A program made the position numbers and the translations under genes. From Parabacteroides massiliensis (GTDB lineage Bacteria > Bacteroidota > Bacteroidia > Bacteroidales > Tannerellaceae): 64,000 nucleotides of DNA. Positions 11,506 to 17,255 of the stretch are shown here, piece after piece (the first letter of the stretch is position 1; every line of letters starts with the position of its first letter). The stretch spans positions 1,635,198 through 1,699,197 of the forward strand of contig NZ_LT700191.1 in NCBI RefSeq assembly GCF_900155425.1, written 5' to 3'. Under the pieces are notes generated by a model. The model made no database searches. It was not told the origin of the DNA and worked only from the letters and a program-made list of their open reading frames with translations.

Positions 11506-11531
11506 TACATTATATATGTATATACGAAAAA

Positions 11532-11563
11532 AGCCTGTTGCCAATGGCAACAGGCTTTTTTTA
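11532..11563 (+). terminator. Intrinsic terminator of frdCAB
   Basis: An 11-base perfect stem (11532-11542 with 11546-11556) with a three-base loop is followed by a run of seven T. An A-run precedes the stem, so it could also work in the other direction. Confidence 0.92.
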
Positions 11564-11577
11564 TTTCGTTCAAGTCC

Positions 11578-11708
11578 ACAAAAAAGCCGCACTCCCTATA
11601 ATAAAAACGGATGCGGCTTTTTTGTTGCTTTCCAGTGAAACAATCTCTCGACTCCTTCTCTGCAAAGACTTTGTTAACCTTAGATCTAAAATACTATGAA
11701 AAAAACTC
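11578..11708 (-). ncRNA. Candidate small RNA, family copy 1
   Basis: A minus-strand promoter (11743-11713) is followed by about 130 bases without a convincing ORF and then an intrinsic terminator (stem 11612-11617 with 11586-11591, U-run from 11585 down to 11580). The first about 55 transcribed bases resemble copies 2 and 3 (positions 15928-15981 and 17166-17219), sharing CATA..AGTATT, then AGATnTAAGGTTAACAAAGT. The 3' part and terminator are unrelated to the other copies. Start and end are estimated from the promoter and the U-run, not measured. The terminator is bidirectional and could also back up frd termination. Confidence 0.6.
11581..11623. terminator. Bidirectional terminator hairpin
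   Basis: The arms AAAAAGCCGCA (11581-11591) and TGCGGCTTTTTT (11612-11623) form a stem flanked by A and T runs, so it can end transcripts from either side: readthrough from frd (plus) or the candidate RNA and dusB transcripts (minus). Confidence 0.8.
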
Positions 11709-11712
11709 ACTG

Positions 11713-11743
11713 CAAATGTAAAGGTTATTTACTGAATATGCAA
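11713..11743 (-). promoter_or_regulatory. Promoter of candidate small RNA copy 1
   Basis: On the minus strand: TTG (11743-11741), 20 bases, TACATTTG (11720-11713). Spacing is the same as at the other two family members. Confidence 0.65.
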
Positions 11744-11826
11744 GAGTTTGTAGTTTCATTTTGTTGCAAATCTGTCACTTTTTGTTTAAAAAGTGACACT
11801 GTGCGCGGATTCATTCTGTTATAATA

Positions 11827-12858
11827 TCAATAATCTGTGGATTTTGATACTTGAGGGTCGCATTGAAATACATTGTCTGTATGAAATCTGCCGGGTATGG
11901 AATCCAGGATGTCGAATAGTGTTTCAACCGTTTCCGCACGCAACATGGCGATACGTGTCTGTTTGAAGTCGGCAATACCTTTAAACAACGGGGTTGCAGC
12001 CAAATGGCGGCGGATATGGAGAATTCCCCGGCGCTCATCCAAACGTTCCACACTCTGTTCTACTTGCTTTTTCAGTATATCCAGATACCAGGAAAAAGAT
12101 TCGGTTGGCAATAGTTCGCCAGTATTCAAGAAATGTTTCACTTCCCTAAAAATCCAGGGACGGCCTATGCTGCCCCGGCCGATCATAACGGCATCCACAC
12201 CATATTGTTCGAAACGTTGCTTGCAGATTTCAGCAGAAGTAACATCGCCGTTACCGATGATGGGAATTTGCATGCGGGGGTTCTTTTTTACTTCGCCGAT
12301 CAGCGTCCAGTCAGCCTCTCCCGTGTACATTTGTGCCCGTGTACGTCCGTGGATGGAAAGGGCGGCGATACCGCAATCCTGCAGCTGTTCGGCCAGATCC
12401 ACGATGATCCGGTTGTCGGCATCCCAACCCAGGCGGGTCTTGACGGTGACAGGGATGTTCACCGCTTTGACGACTTCGCGGGTGATGTCCAGCATCAGCG
12501 GAATATTGCGCAGCATGCCGGCGCCGGCTCCTTTGCCTGCCACCCGTTTGACCGGGCAACCGAAATTGATGTCGAGAATGTCCGGATGAGCGGCTTCGCA
12601 AATCTGTGCGGCTTCGACCATTGTCGGAACATCGCGGCCATATATCTGGATGGCGACCGGACGTTCTTCATCTGCCACGTTCAGCTTTTGCTGTGTTTTA
12701 TTTACACTGCGGATCAGGGCGTCTGCCGAAACGAATTCGGTATAAACCATATCGGCGCCAAAACGTTTGCACATCAACCGGAAAGAAATATCTGTAACAT
12801 CTTCCATCGGAGCCAGGAAGACGGGACGTTCCCCTAAATCAATTGTTCCTATTTTCAT
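11827..12858 (-). CDS. dusB: tRNA-dihydrouridine synthase
   Basis: The 343-residue enzyme belongs to the Dus family and reduces uridines in the tRNA D-loop with FMN and NADPH. The FMN-binding start (LAPMEDVTD, about residues 15-23), the catalytic Cys101 in INFGCPVKRVAGKGAG, and the phosphate-binding GNGDV and MIGRGSIGRPW segments are all present. Assignment to DusB rather than DusA or DusC rests on overall resemblance and the usual Bacteroidetes annotation. A TACCTTTG element (minus, 12888-12881) lies just upstream without a clear -33 partner. It is transcribed away from the neighbouring U32 gene. Confidence 0.93.
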   Translation of the reverse strand: MKIGTIDLGERPVFLAPMEDVTDISFRLMCKRFGADMVYTEFVSADALIRSVNKTQQKLNVADEERPVAIQIYGRDVPTMVEAAQICEAAHPDILDINFGCPVKRVAGKGAGAGMLRNIPLMLDITREVVKAVNIPVTVKTRLGWDADNRIIVDLAEQLQDCGIAALSIHGRTRAQMYTGEADWTLIGEVKKNPRMQIPIIGNGDVTSAEICKQRFEQYGVDAVMIGRGSIGRPWIFREVKHFLNTGELLPTESFSWYLDILKKQVEQSVERLDERRGILHIRRHLAATPLFKGIADFKQTRIAMLRAETVETLFDILDSIPGRFHTDNVFQCDPQVSKSTDY

Positions 12859-12932
12859 ATTATATCATCAATAACAGCTGCAAAGGTACTGATTTCCTGC
12901 TAAAAAAAACAGGGACAAAAGATACTCTGTTC

Positions 12933-12955
12933 GTTTGTGGCATTGTTCCACAAAC
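12933..12955. promoter_or_regulatory. Dyad in the dusB / U32 divergent region
   Basis: The 8-base arms GTTTGTGG (12933-12940) and CCACAAAC (12948-12955) are perfectly complementary around a 7-base centre. It could be an operator for either divergent gene or simply an RNA hairpin; no T-run follows. Confidence 0.35.
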
Positions 12956-13036
12956 ATTCTGCGGTTGTGCTATAGCCGTTCCATGCCGGGAAAGACGTAA
13001 ACGGATGCTCATGCCATTCTTCTCGGATATTATTCC

Positions 13037-13044
13037 TACCTTTG
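13037..13044 (+). promoter_or_regulatory. -7 element of the U32-thioesterase-dprA operon
   Basis: TACCTTTG matches the Bacteroidetes -7 consensus and ends only 15 bases before the ATG at 13060. The mRNA would then have a leader of roughly ten bases. No good TTG is found at the expected upstream distance. Confidence 0.5.
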
Positions 13045-13059
13045 CGGACGAATCAGTAA

Positions 13060-14331
13060 ATGTATAAGGACTTGAACGAGAAAGATTTTGAAATAATGGC
13101 GCCTGTCGGTTCGTACGAATCACTGATGGCGGCTATCCAGGGAGGAGCCGATTCTATCTATTTCGGTATCGAAGGGTTGAATATGCGTTCGCGCTCTTCC
13201 AATAATTTTACGACAGACGACTTGCGTAAGATCGTTGCAATCTGCCGTGAGCATGGTCTTAAGAGTTACTTGACCGTCAATACGGTTATTTACGGGGAAG
13301 ACTTGCCACTGATGCGTGAGATTATCGACGCGGCGAAGGCGGCGGAGGTCTCGGCGATCATTGCGGCAGATGTGGCGGCCATGAGCTATGCCAACAGCAT
13401 CGGGCAAGAGGTGCATCTCTCCACACAGCTCAACATCTCCAATGCGGAAGCGCTGAAATTCTATGCCCGTTTTGCCGATGTCGTCGTCTTAGCACGCGAA
13501 CTGAACCTGAAGCAGGTACATGAAATCTACCGGCAGATCGTCGATGAACAGATCACGGGGCCGAAAGGAGAACTGATCCGCATCGAAATGTTTGCCCACG
13601 GGGCTCTCTGTATGGCCGTTTCCGGTAAATGCTACCTGAGCCTGCACGAAATGAACGCTTCCGCCAACCGCGGAGCCTGCATGCAGATCTGCCGGCGTGC
13701 TTATTCGGTAAAAGACAAAGACAGCAATATCGAACTGGATATCGAAAACCAGTATATCATGTCGCCTAAAGACTTGAAAACAATTCATTTCATGAATAAG
13801 ATGATGGATGCAGGCGTACGGGTATTCAAGATCGAAGGACGTGCCCGCGGTCCCGAATATGTCCGTCTGGTGACTGAATGTTATAAGGAGGCTGTGCGTG
13901 CCTACTGTAACGGCACGTTCGACGAAGAGAAGGTTGCCGTTTGGGACGAACGTCTCGGCAGCGTGTTCAACCGGGGGTTCTGGGACGGTTATTACCTGGG
14001 GCAACGGTTGGGCGAATGGAGCAGCAAATATGGTTCGGGAGCGACCAAGAAGAAAGTGTATGTCGCCAAAGGGATCAAATATTTCGACAAGATCGGCGTG
14101 GCGGAGTTCGAAATGGAATCAGGCAGCTTGAAAGTGGGCGATGAAATCCTGATTACCGGGCCGACAACGGGTGCAGTCATGCAGACGATAGACGAAATCC
14201 GTGTAGGCTTGAAACCGGTGTCCGAGACTGTCAAAGGCGAACGGTTCTCTTGTAAGGTAAGCGAGAAGATCCGGCCGTCCGACCGATTGTATAAAATGGA
14301 AAAAGTTCAACTTGAGAAAGTTTTTGAATGA
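13060..14331 (+). CDS. U32-family protein (TrhP/RlhA-like RNA hydroxylase)
   Basis: The 423-residue protein carries the U32 signature (EMFAHGALCMAVSGKCYLSL, about residues 176-195) and four cysteines (184, 191, 207, 211) placed as in family members thought to bind an Fe-S cluster, followed by the C-terminal beta domain. Well-studied relatives (TrhP/YegQ and RlhA) hydroxylate tRNA U34 or 23S rRNA C2501 rather than cleave peptides. Size and C-terminal domain fit TrhP better, but I cannot separate them from sequence alone. The stop overlaps the next ATG by 4 bases, indicating translational coupling. Confidence 0.85.
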   Translation: MYKDLNEKDFEIMAPVGSYESLMAAIQGGADSIYFGIEGLNMRSRSSNNFTTDDLRKIVAICREHGLKSYLTVNTVIYGEDLPLMREIIDAAKAAEVSAIIAADVAAMSYANSIGQEVHLSTQLNISNAEALKFYARFADVVVLARELNLKQVHEIYRQIVDEQITGPKGELIRIEMFAHGALCMAVSGKCYLSLHEMNASANRGACMQICRRAYSVKDKDSNIELDIENQYIMSPKDLKTIHFMNKMMDAGVRVFKIEGRARGPEYVRLVTECYKEAVRAYCNGTFDEEKVAVWDERLGSVFNRGFWDGYYLGQRLGEWSSKYGSGATKKKVYVAKGIKYFDKIGVAEFEMESGSLKVGDEILITGPTTGAVMQTIDEIRVGLKPVSETVKGERFSCKVSEKIRPSDRLYKMEKVQLEKVFE

Positions 14332-14738
14332 TGAAAGAGTATATTTTTAAACTGACAGACAAAGTCCGCGACTACGAATGCGATTTGCAGGGAGTGGTCA
14401 ACAACTCCAATTACCAGCATTATATGGAACATACCCGGCATGAATTCCTGGAATCGCTCGGTGAGAATTTCGGAAAGATGCATGAGAAAGGCATTGACGG
14501 ATTTGTGTCGCGGGTAGAGATCCAGTATAAAACCTCCCTTAAAAGCGGCGACCGCTATATCTCCTGCCTCAATATATATAAAAAAGGTGTCAAGCTTGTG
14601 TTCGAGCAGGATATTTACAGGGCTTCCGACAATGTACTGGCAACGAAAGGAATCGTTGAGTCGGTTATCGTCGAGAACGGGAAGCTGACACGTGGCGAAT
14701 ATTTCGACGAAATGCTAAAAAGAATAGAACATACATGA
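14328..14738 (+). CDS. Acyl-CoA thioesterase, hot-dog fold (4HBT/YbgC-like)
   Basis: The 136-residue protein is one hot-dog domain. The segment YECDLQGVVNNSNYQHYMEH has the layout of the 4-hydroxybenzoyl-CoA thioesterase active site, though with Gln-Gly-Val in place of the more usual Met-Gly-His. It would hydrolyse an acyl-CoA or acyl-ACP thioester; the substrate is not readable. It overlaps the U32 gene by 4 bases upstream and dprA by 4 bases downstream, so the three proteins are probably made from one mRNA. Confidence 0.86.
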   Translation: MMKEYIFKLTDKVRDYECDLQGVVNNSNYQHYMEHTRHEFLESLGENFGKMHEKGIDGFVSRVEIQYKTSLKSGDRYISCLNIYKKGVKLVFEQDIYRASDNVLATKGIVESVIVENGKLTRGEYFDEMLKRIEHT

Positions 14739-15850
14739 CAGACAAACGGATTTACCAAATTGGCCTTACTATGATAAACGGCGTGGGAGATATCCTGGCA
14801 CGGCATCTCCTGCAAACTTTGGGAGATGCAGAGGCGGTGTTTGCAGAAAAAAAGCCGTTATTGGAAAAAGTTCCGGGTATCGGTAGCCATATCGCAGCCG
14901 AAATCAAACGTCCGGAAATCCTGCAACGGGCGGAAAAAGAGTTGGCTTTTATCGAGAAAAATAATATTTCCTGTTATTATCTGGCCGATACGGATTATCC
15001 GCTACGCCTGAGGGAATGCCCGGATGCCCCTGTGCTTTTCTATTTCAAGGGAAATACGGACCTTGATGCAACTCGTATCATCAGTGTCGTGGGTACTCGC
15101 AACGCGACGGAATACGGTCGGGGGCTTACCGAATCCCTTATAAAAGACCTGGCGGAGACAATACCAGGGCTGTTGGTCGTGAGTGGACTGGCTTACGGTA
15201 TTGATATCTGTGCTCACCGAAGTGCATTGCGTAGCCAACTGCCGACCGTTGCCGTGCTGGCGCATGGTCTGGATCGTATTTATCCTTCTTCCCATCGGAA
15301 TACGGCTGTGGAACTGCTGGAATCGGGCGGGTTGTTGACTGATTTTCCCAGCGGGACAGAGCCGGATCGTCCAAATTTCCTCCGGCGAAACCGGATTGTC
15401 GCCGGAATGTCGGATTGTACGATCGTGGTCGAATCGGCTGAAAAGGGCGGCTCTTTGGTGACAGCCGATATTGCATTTTCTTATGGACGGGATGTCTGCA
15501 GCTTTCCGGGGCGTGTCGGCGACAACCATTCCAAAGGTTGCAACAATCTTATCCGGCAAAACAAAGCCGGTTTGATTACCTCTGCCGATGATCTGATCTC
15601 TGCTCTTTGTTGGGATATTCAAGCCACGGCTACTCCTGTTCAAGCGGAACTGCCTTTTTTCGATACGGACATTTCCACTCCGGAACAAAATCCGGTTTTA
15701 GCCATCATGCGGACACAGAATGAGATCCATATCAACGAACTTGCCTTGGCTCTGGACATGCCGGTGCATCAACTTTCTACGCAACTGTTCGAATTGGAAA
15801 TAAGCGGGAAGATAAAAGTATTGCCGGGAAACATCTATAAACTGTCTTGA
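14735..15850 (+). CDS. dprA: DNA-processing protein DprA
   Basis: The 371-residue protein has an N-terminal helix-hairpin-helix/SAM-like region (LARHLLQTLGDAEAVF ... VPGIGSHIAAEI), the Rossmann-like DprA core with VVGTRNATEYG (118-128), GLAYGIDICAH (151-161), RRNRIVAG (217-224) and SAEKGGSLVTA (234-244), and a C-terminal winged-helix (about 315-371). DprA protects incoming single-stranded DNA and loads RecA during transformation. It is common in bacteria not known to be competent, so it alone does not show competence. It is the last gene of the operon with the U32 protein and thioesterase. Confidence 0.95.
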   Translation: MTDKRIYQIGLTMINGVGDILARHLLQTLGDAEAVFAEKKPLLEKVPGIGSHIAAEIKRPEILQRAEKELAFIEKNNISCYYLADTDYPLRLRECPDAPVLFYFKGNTDLDATRIISVVGTRNATEYGRGLTESLIKDLAETIPGLLVVSGLAYGIDICAHRSALRSQLPTVAVLAHGLDRIYPSSHRNTAVELLESGGLLTDFPSGTEPDRPNFLRRNRIVAGMSDCTIVVESAEKGGSLVTADIAFSYGRDVCSFPGRVGDNHSKGCNNLIRQNKAGLITSADDLISALCWDIQATATPVQAELPFFDTDISTPEQNPVLAIMRTQNEIHINELALALDMPVHQLSTQLFELEISGKIKVLPGNIYKLS

Positions 15851-15903
15851 CCGGTCTTTTCATAGGCTGTTTTTTATACCTGAGAGAGGAATGGGACTTC
15901 TAT

Positions 15904-15981
15904 AAAAAATTAAAGGCTGTCTCACGACAACCCCTAACCAACTTTGTTAACCTTAAATCTAATACTATTATGAAAAAACCA
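15904..15981 (-). ncRNA. Candidate small RNA, family copy 2
   Basis: About 78 bases on the minus strand run from a consensus promoter (16017-15987) to an intrinsic terminator: stem GGTTGTC (15932-15926) with GACAGCC (15921-15915), loop of four, then a T-rich tail (15914-15904). A 58-base block (15926-15983) is identical to copy 3 (17164-17221). It lies just 3' of the GDPD gene in the same orientation and converges on dprA. A short ORF on the plus strand (ATG at 15970) exists in copies 2 and 3, but the differences mostly change amino acids, so coding constraint is unlikely. Confidence 0.68.
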
Positions 15982-15986
15982 CAGTG

Positions 15987-16017
15987 CAAAGATACGCTTG
16001 TCAAGAGCGTTTGTCAA
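15987..16017 (-). promoter_or_regulatory. Promoter of candidate small RNA copy 2
   Basis: Minus strand: TTG (16017-16015), 20 bases, TATCTTTG (15994-15987). Both elements match the consensus. A second TTGAC lies inside the spacer. Confidence 0.7.
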
Positions 16018-16102
16018 GCGTTTTACGGCTAATACTTGTTAATCTGGAGGGTACGAATGGTAAAAAGATTTTAACTTGATTTAAAGAACCTTTTAAACCA
16101 CG

Positions 16103-16999
16103 TTATTTTGTTAAATCGAGCCCTTGAAACAGGTATGGATAGTCCGTTTCGATCACATCGGGACGAGTGCTGATCTCTGACTGGTAACCGGCTGTTTTTT
16201 CTGTTTCCGTTTTTGCCCGGTCGTGTGTCGGGGCAACGGAAATCATGCACATGACACCGTTTCGGTGCAGGTCATCGTACAACGGTTGCTGCTCGGGCTT
16301 CATTTTCGGTCCGACATAAGCCATCACTTGTCTCCAAGGAATACCGGCTTTCTCATATTTATCGAATTCTTCCCGATTCTTGCACCAGCAGGAAAACATG
16401 GCCTCCGGTTCCCGGTCGAGATAATAGCGGGCCTGACCGGCGTTATGTACCGTGTACATGACGTTGACAGGCTTTTCTTTTTCGATAAAATCAGCCATGA
16501 CCTCCAAGGGCACATCTTTGATATCCAAATTCAGGATTGTTTTGCCCTTGCTCCATTCCAGGCATTCTTTCAAGGTCGGAATCTTGAAAGCAGTCACGTT
16601 GCCGTTACGGTCTACCAGATTGAATTGTCGTAGCTCCGCATAGGTGTAATCCGAAACTTTCCCTTTTCCGGTGGTTGTCCGGTCGATGGTTTCGTCGTGC
16701 ATCAACACGATCACCCCGTCTTTTGTCAAGCGCGGATCGATCTCGAAAAACGATTCCATATAGGACAGGGTCTTCTCGAACGATTCGATGCAGTTCTCCG
16801 GATAACCGTCCAGCATTCCGCCACGATGTCCGCTGATCACAATCGGGCGGTCAGGAGCATACCGGAAATAGGCATGAAGATCCCCGCTGTTCTTTACTTG
16901 AATATAATGAGGATTTTGTTCTGTATCCGAAGCCGAAAGGTCTCCGGCAGTCATAAAGACTCCTAAAAGGAGTACAAGAAAAAAAGATAACATTTTCAT
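16103..16999 (-). CDS. Secreted glycerophosphodiester phosphodiesterase (GDPD family)
   Basis: The 298-residue protein has a signal peptide (about 1-24) and a GDPD TIM-barrel. Catalytic features are visible: His58-Arg59 in ISGHRGG, the metal-binding Glu87 and Asp89 in EIDPRLTKDG, and His101 in VLMHDETIDRTT. Such enzymes hydrolyse glycerophosphodiesters to glycerol-3-phosphate and an alcohol in the periplasm, serving phosphate or carbon scavenging. The gene is flanked on both sides by copies of the small-RNA repeat in the same orientation. I prefer the ATG at 16999; an in-frame Met three residues in is equally possible. Confidence 0.92.
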   Translation of the reverse strand: MKMLSFFLVLLLGVFMTAGDLSASDTEQNPHYIQVKNSGDLHAYFRYAPDRPIVISGHRGGMLDGYPENCIESFEKTLSYMESFFEIDPRLTKDGVIVLMHDETIDRTTTGKGKVSDYTYAELRQFNLVDRNGNVTAFKIPTLKECLEWSKGKTILNLDIKDVPLEVMADFIEKEKPVNVMYTVHNAGQARYYLDREPEAMFSCWCKNREEFDKYEKAGIPWRQVMAYVGPKMKPEQQPLYDDLHRNGVMCMISVAPTHDRAKTETEKTAGYQSEISTRPDVIETDYPYLFQGLDLTK

Positions 17000-17140
17000 G
17001 ATGTTCGTATTTACATGGATTCCTTATTGATTACGAGGCTTAAAAGTAAAAATTTTTTGCCAATGCCGTGCTTGAAGATTGTTACAAAAATATGAAAATA
17101 TGACCGGAGGCGAGATACGTAAGAGAAGCAGAGGGTATAT

Positions 17141-17219
17141 AAAAAATTAAGGATTGTCATCACGACAACCCCTAACCAACTTTGTTAACCTTAAATCTAA
17201 TACTATTATGAAAAAACCA
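17141..17219 (-). ncRNA. Candidate small RNA, family copy 3
   Basis: About 79 bases on the minus strand between a consensus promoter (17255-17225) and an intrinsic terminator: arms 17171-17164 and 17158-17151 form an 8-base stem with one G-U pair, loop of five, then a T-rich tail ending at 17141. The 5' arm is identical to copy 2, while the 3' arm differs (GACAATCC against GACAGCC) yet still pairs, which suggests the hairpin is maintained. It lies upstream of the GDPD gene in the same orientation. Ends are estimated. Confidence 0.68.
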
Positions 17220-17224
17220 CATTG

Positions 17225-17255
17225 CAAAGATACGCCTGTCAAGCCCGTTTGTCAA
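17225..17255 (-). promoter_or_regulatory. Promoter of candidate small RNA copy 3
   Basis: Minus strand: TTG (17255-17253), 20 bases, TATCTTTG (17232-17225), identical in arrangement to copy 2. Confidence 0.7.

Follow-up and report, generated by a model that had tools for sequence, protein, structure and literature searches.

The 64-kb window analysed here (the whole stretch of DNA, from a Parabacteroides-like genome) carries on its minus strand three short loci, at 11.6, 15.9 and 17.2 kb, which the original prediction had grouped as a three-member family of small RNA (sRNA) genes. Our analysis indicates that the 15.9- and 17.2-kb loci are, with good probability, FopS sRNA genes whose products block susC starts, and that the 11.6-kb locus holds an sRNA of its own, inherited vertically. 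The grouping into one family of three thus had to be abandoned: two of the loci belong among nine FopS copies in the genome, and the third differs in its FopS score (33.8 of 56 bits), in an extra hairpin and in its linkage to dus. FopS is described in the available text of its report as a multicopy sRNA family of gut Bacteroides that represses translation of susC mRNA and thereby turns off the making of sugar transporters, with 14 copies in B. thetaiotaomicron, each with an unpaired 5' seed, R1, and a terminator hairpin (PMC11697453). The FopS features of the window are as follows, class B being one of two copy classes defined below.

15901..15982, minus strand: FopS sRNA, class B copy 1, with 5' GTGGTTTTTTCATAATAG, R1 block and terminator hairpin (RF04319, 60.9 bits; fold)
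15987..16017, minus strand: promoter of copy 1, TTG-N20-TATCTTTG (motif scan)
17138..17220, minus strand: FopS sRNA, class B copy 2 (RF04319, 61.1 bits; fold)
17225..17255, minus strand: promoter of copy 2, TTG-N20-TATCTTTG (motif scan)

The Rfam gathering cut-off of RF04319 (BTncRNA_FopS) is 56 bits, and the only Rfam matches above cut-off in the window are these two sRNAs, so that the database search proposed with the original prediction returned an sRNA family. From the GTG onward, 61 bases are identical between the two copies; the 5' block at 11.6 kb is related to theirs but diverged, which bears out the claim of a shared 5' block. Each of the three predicted transcripts ends in a terminator-like hairpin of its own, as had been proposed, and folds better as a whole than its shuffled versions (z-scores of -2.8, -2.5 and -3.0). 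In the centroid fold of the 15.9-kb copy the 5' part including R1 is open, and in that of the 17.2-kb copy R1 is open and a 5-bp hairpin is predicted within the first 17 nt. None of the three minus-strand loci encodes a plausible protein, in agreement with the original prediction: the GTG frame of both class B copies stops after four codons, and that of the 11.6-kb locus, open here, has its GTG in just 4 of 20 orthologs and is disrupted among them by length differences of one and two bases.

The motif scan also located the TTG-N20-TAnnTTTG promoter, the sigma-ABfr-type signal expected of FopS, at both FopS loci and at 11713-11743, exactly where it had been reported. The window holds nine such sites on both strands together, against a mean of 0.60 and a maximum of 3 in 100 shuffles; a motif so far above chance is the promoter in common use in this group and is not peculiar to the three sRNA genes.

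The genome (G000; 23 contigs, 5.0 Mb, 99.9% complete) has nine FopS matches above cut-off, with pairs of copies lying 1.2, 1.4 and 4.5 kb apart, and weaker matches at 44.5 bits, at the 33.8 bits of the 11.6-kb locus, and at 31.6 bits and lower. When related genomes were searched, as had also been advised, FopS was found at E 0.001 or better in all 34 other genomes of the same genus (3 to 13 matches each) and in 8 of 24 genomes from other families of the order. The suggestion that the loci represent a multicopy Bacteroides sRNA family in Parabacteroides therefore holds for the 15.9- and 17.2-kb pair and fails for the 11.6-kb locus, which stays under the cut-off. For the pair, family membership, promoter, fold, copy number, conservation and an excess of complementarity to susC starts (below) are computed observations.

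Three further loci resemble FopS. Two of them (L010 and L012; G000 C1:119410 and C4:11197; 44.5 and 31.6 bits) begin like class A, and no promoter was found directly upstream of either; their RNAs are perhaps cut from mRNA 3' ends. The third (L014; G000 C3:887777-887850) is a 24.3-bit FopS match with a full TTG-N20-TATATTTG promoter and UUUUUUCAU followed by a different block, and is possibly a further anti-start sRNA.

By their 5' ends, four of the nine copies (L001-L004, GTGTTTTTCATGGTATTAG...) make up class A and five (L005-L009, GTGGTTTTTTCATAATAGTATTAG..., including both window copies) class B. In class B, the distance between the part facing the start codon and the R1 block is 3 bases larger than in class A, and an additional U is present. 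Allowing up to 2 mismatches, the 32-base class B block was found in 8 of 295 genomes of the order (4/4 of the sampled genomes of the host family and 4/291 others, four families in all), and among the copies listed it showed 0 mismatches in 23/23, over those four families. The promoters differ as well. Counted on best-match loci from related genomes, which are not independent, TTG-N19-21-TAnnTTTG precedes 29/32 class B copies, 17/21 copies of the 11.6-kb type (class C) and 17/58 cellular class A copies, and the palindrome TATGTT-N4-AACATA (up to 2 mismatches, at the -30 region) precedes 36/58 cellular class A copies (noted among L001-L004 and L131-L156), 0/32 class B, 0/21 class C and 0/27 viral class A copies; in control windows upstream of class A it occurred in 20/174. 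The palindrome is a possible regulator site, or may be the same as PM2, which Ryan et al. describe, in the part of their text available, as a near-palindromic promoter motif with parts at -10 and -30. Judged from the sequences, the division into seed and promoter classes appears to be an addition to the FopS paper, the available text of which reports no such split and the discussion of which describes the 14 B. thetaiotaomicron copies as not strongly sub-diversified (PMC11697453).

The class A block also stands, exact, in 31 viral-contig stretches (L099-L129), and the class B block had no exact match in viral contigs. In one viral stretch (L099) the class A block begins 6 bases behind a tRNA-Arg gene; among the 14 viral loci scanned, of 31, this is the only one with a tRNA directly upstream.

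To evaluate pairing with susC mRNAs, we took the 57 rows returned by a genome search (56 susC-type genes), dropped one in which no ATG was found (L182), and used the remaining 55 starts from -45 to +25. Mean duplex energies were -16.1 kcal/mol for the class A seed, -16.9 for class B and -14.4 for class C; on 270 stretches further upstream they were -13.2, -13.4 and -13.4, and on 260 stretches from the coding parts -13.2, -13.7 and -13.6 kcal/mol. None of 200 shuffled seeds reached the mean of its class in G000. Compared with the starts of 41 window genes, susC starts paired better with class A (p=0.0003) and class B (p=0.005), with p=0.25 for class C, and in a second genome, G016 (30 of 56 susC rows used), the start region exceeded the upstream region with p=0.045, 0.005 and 0.15, respectively. 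From these upstream, coding, window-gene and second-genome comparisons it follows that classes A and B show excess pairing at susC starts and class C little. Duplexes at -15 kcal/mol or better covered the AUG in 31/33 (class A) and 32/37 cases (class B), the strong ones extending from about -35 to +13, and within the 60 bases preceding susC starts, words complementary to R1 reached 2.5 to 3.6 times their density further upstream. By a difference of at least 3 kcal/mol, 15 of the 55 starts prefer class B and 10 prefer class A. A T at -1 goes with B (mean difference -2.1, n=33) and a C at -1 with A (+1.4, n=13), a preference that follows from the letters of the seeds and is offered as a prediction. 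Opposite a susC start codon (C3:545340), the FopS model gave an insignificant match (E 1.9) on the minus strand at G000 C3:545272-545348 (L015), which would be expected of a model that mirrors its targets.

Several points weigh against reading this excess as targeting by FopS. The start codons were chosen by rule, as those giving the most hydrophobic N-terminus, and the duplex energies disregard mRNA folding. Class B formed duplexes at -15 kcal/mol or better with 49% of the 41 window-gene starts, compared with 67% of susC starts (p=0.005), and since these other starts also pair fairly well, the AT-richness of start regions supplies part of the signal. In G016, the excess of class A over upstream stretches is marginal, and shuffled seeds reached the class means in 0/200 (A), 2/200 (B) and 2/200 trials (C). 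Class C too beats its shuffles in both genomes despite little positional excess, which makes shuffled seeds a lenient control. The idea in the original prediction of a shared 5' seed acting on several targets agrees, for classes A and B, with their susC excess and with the FopS mechanism as published in the text available (PMC11697453); class C has at best a weak excess.

The 11.6-kb locus, class C, comprises the features below.

11580..11708 (about), minus strand: class C sRNA, dus-linked, with R1-like 5' end, conserved hairpin and terminator (20/38 genus genomes; alignment and pair counts; under all Rfam cut-offs)
11713..11743, minus strand: class C promoter, TTG-N20-TACATTTG (motif scan)
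11674..11708, minus strand: invariant 35-nt 5' end, anti-start UUUUUUUCAU and R1-like block (35 invariant columns in 20 sequences)
11580..11623, minus strand: intrinsic terminator, approximate ends (sequence, fold)
11827..12858, minus strand: dus, upstream of class C in relatives (tblastn, 20/20 genus loci); by its sequence we take it to be a tRNA-dihydrouridine synthase gene

Its Rfam scores are 33.8 bits for FopS, 37.9 for GibS (cut-off 115) and 35.6 for BTnc231 (cut-off 80.4). In a DNA search, 20 of the 38 genus genomes gave long matches, and an 88-position covariance model recovered these 20 genomes at E 1e-9 or better, with one copy each (18/26 among good-quality genomes). Across 247 genomes of the order, only three, all from one family (G000, G059 and G241), exceeded 90 bits; of 30 order-wide loci, only L239-L241 combined dus with more than 90 bits, and the rest had 48.6 bits or less. 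Upstream of class C, on its strand, stands a dus-like gene at 20/20 genus loci and also in G241; the gap here is 118 bases. In the alignment, besides the invariant 5' end, class C has an extra conserved hairpin of 16 pairs, with 95.6% of cells paired and both sides changed in 6 pairs. Its covariation score was reached by 0/500 shuffles, and slid versions have 2 or 3 two-sided pairs. Because seed and hairpin stay constant while the terminators vary between species, the pattern is that of a working RNA. The locus would thus be a separate, single-copy, related sRNA that is vertically inherited. It is apparently undescribed, since our literature search found no description of it; this negative is based on that search and Rfam 15.

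The only match in the genome to a perfect class C target (TTAGATCTAA-N2-18-ATG) is the opposite strand of the sRNA itself. A self-complementary 16-nt stretch of class C pairs with itself at -15.4 kcal/mol; as class A also self-pairs, at -13.6, this is weak evidence for dimers.

Four other explanations were weighed. That all three loci form one functional family, with class C a diverged FopS, is the strongest of them though still improbable: class C has UUUUUUUCAU and R1-like letters in common with FopS and scores 33.8 bits on its model, but it lies under the cut-off, has its own invariant 5' end and an extra covarying hairpin, and occurs once per genome in a fixed place with little preference for susC. 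Rather less probable is that class C corresponds, in Tannerellaceae, to GibS or BTnc231. Both match weakly (BTnc231 with E 1.5e-4 for the stretch searched), and several genus genomes have their best BTnc231 match at the class C locus; we rejected both assignments, however, since their cut-offs are far higher and 0/59 genomes reach either, and in Bacteroides GibS is placed, in the text available, between a pabB-type cluster and the glycogen operon (PMC7366714), whereas class C lies behind dus.

Two further accounts deny sRNA genes altogether, and we hold both very improbable. The repeated block might be the end of a mobile element or a dispersed non-coding repeat, as near-identical copies, partly in closely adjacent pairs, and the viral occurrences of the class A block could suggest. 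Yet the copies have in common a 5' seed, a terminator and a promoter at constant distance while differing elsewhere, they are members of an Rfam family, and the unvarying class B block in four families fits selection on a seed. Slightly less credible still is a small protein encoded on the plus strand, where the reverse complement begins ATGAAAAAACC and open reading frames of 61 and 55 amino acids share a peptide, so that the conservation would reflect the protein; Rfam assigns the minus strand, however, the corresponding frame of class A stops after seven codons, and the peptides resemble each other because they overlie the sRNA and its promoter.

Returning to FopS and a separate class C, we propose that class B would be transcribed, constitutively or depending on growth phase, from a sigma-ABfr-type housekeeping promoter into an RNA of about 80 nt with an unpaired 5' end. 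In susC-type mRNAs, the start region would be the complement of this end, UUUUUUCAU facing AUGAAAAAA and the R1 block (UUAGAUUUAAGGUUAA) facing, about 15-25 bases upstream, a stretch like TTAAATCTAA, and pairing over the start codon would block ribosome loading or initiation. An RRM protein such as RbpB may pull the sRNA off and relieve the block; the genome has four RRM_1 genes as candidates. Transcription, repression and RbpB antagonism are carried over from B. thetaiotaomicron, in which, according to the available text, bile salts induce FopS, it pairs with susC start regions and blocks translation, and the RRM protein RbpB relieves repression (PMC11697453). With the same kind of 5' end, class C would likely act in the same way on other mRNAs, its hairpin perhaps serving as a protein-binding or stability element.

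More tentatively, and on balance doubtfully, the R1-type sRNAs of this lineage could form a divided anti-start-codon system, in which a fixed anti-AUG stretch and an anti-leader block with class-specific spacing address different sets of start regions, those of susC or of other genes, class A stands under the TATGTT-N4-AACATA palindrome and classes B and C under plain housekeeping promoters, and class C is a new dus-linked family with a self-complementary seed stretch. FopS belongs to the handful of Bacteroidota sRNA systems whose mechanism is worked out, and the authors who discovered it, in the text available, could name no clear reason why there are 14 near-identical copies (PMC11697453); a genome with copies split by seed spacing and promoter allows dosage and division of labour to be tested against each other, and class C, a single-copy relative, is cleanly deletable. 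The FopS family was known already; the seed and promoter classes and the dus-linked sRNA appear to be new.

Two neighbourhood observations complete the map. The two FopS copies of the window flank a single gene:

16103..16999, minus strand: gene between the two FopS copies (open reading frame; flanked by both copies in 2 of the 3 closest named relatives), presumably glycerophosphodiester-phosphodiesterase-like

The nearest named relatives of its product are from Parabacteroides (89 and 87% identical) and point to this genus for the host; relatives L019 and L020 carry both class B copies, and in L021 they were not found. Between an FrdB-like gene and class C, at 11524-11566, is a strong hairpin, symmetric and with runs of T on either strand, probably a two-way terminator. 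Further Rfam matches in the region of 11.5 kb that stay under threshold, among them trpB (45.1 of 59 bits) and Thr_leader (36 of 55 bits), were attributed to the strong terminator hairpins.

The published FopS (RF04319; Ruttiger et al. 2025, PMC11697453), in the text available, shares with the window copies the R1 block, unpaired 5' end, terminator hairpin, multiple copies, TAnnTTTG promoter and complementarity to susC start regions. In window class B, differing from it, the anti-start stretch and R1 are separated by 3 additional bases and there is one U more, and the canonical TTG promoters lack the palindrome that precedes many class A copies. The window copies also come from a Parabacteroides-like genome, whereas the paper describes conservation for Bacteroidaceae and its main text does not contain the word Parabacteroides. 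Class C resembles GibS (RF04182, PMC7366714), as far as the available text describes it, in its R1-like unpaired 5' end, a length of about 130-145 nt, extra middle hairpins and a terminator, and differs in score, neighbours and promoter type. BTnc231 (RF04180) has in common with class C a UUUUUUUCAUAG 5' start and a terminator, and differs from it in that class C reaches less than half of the BTnc231 cut-off.

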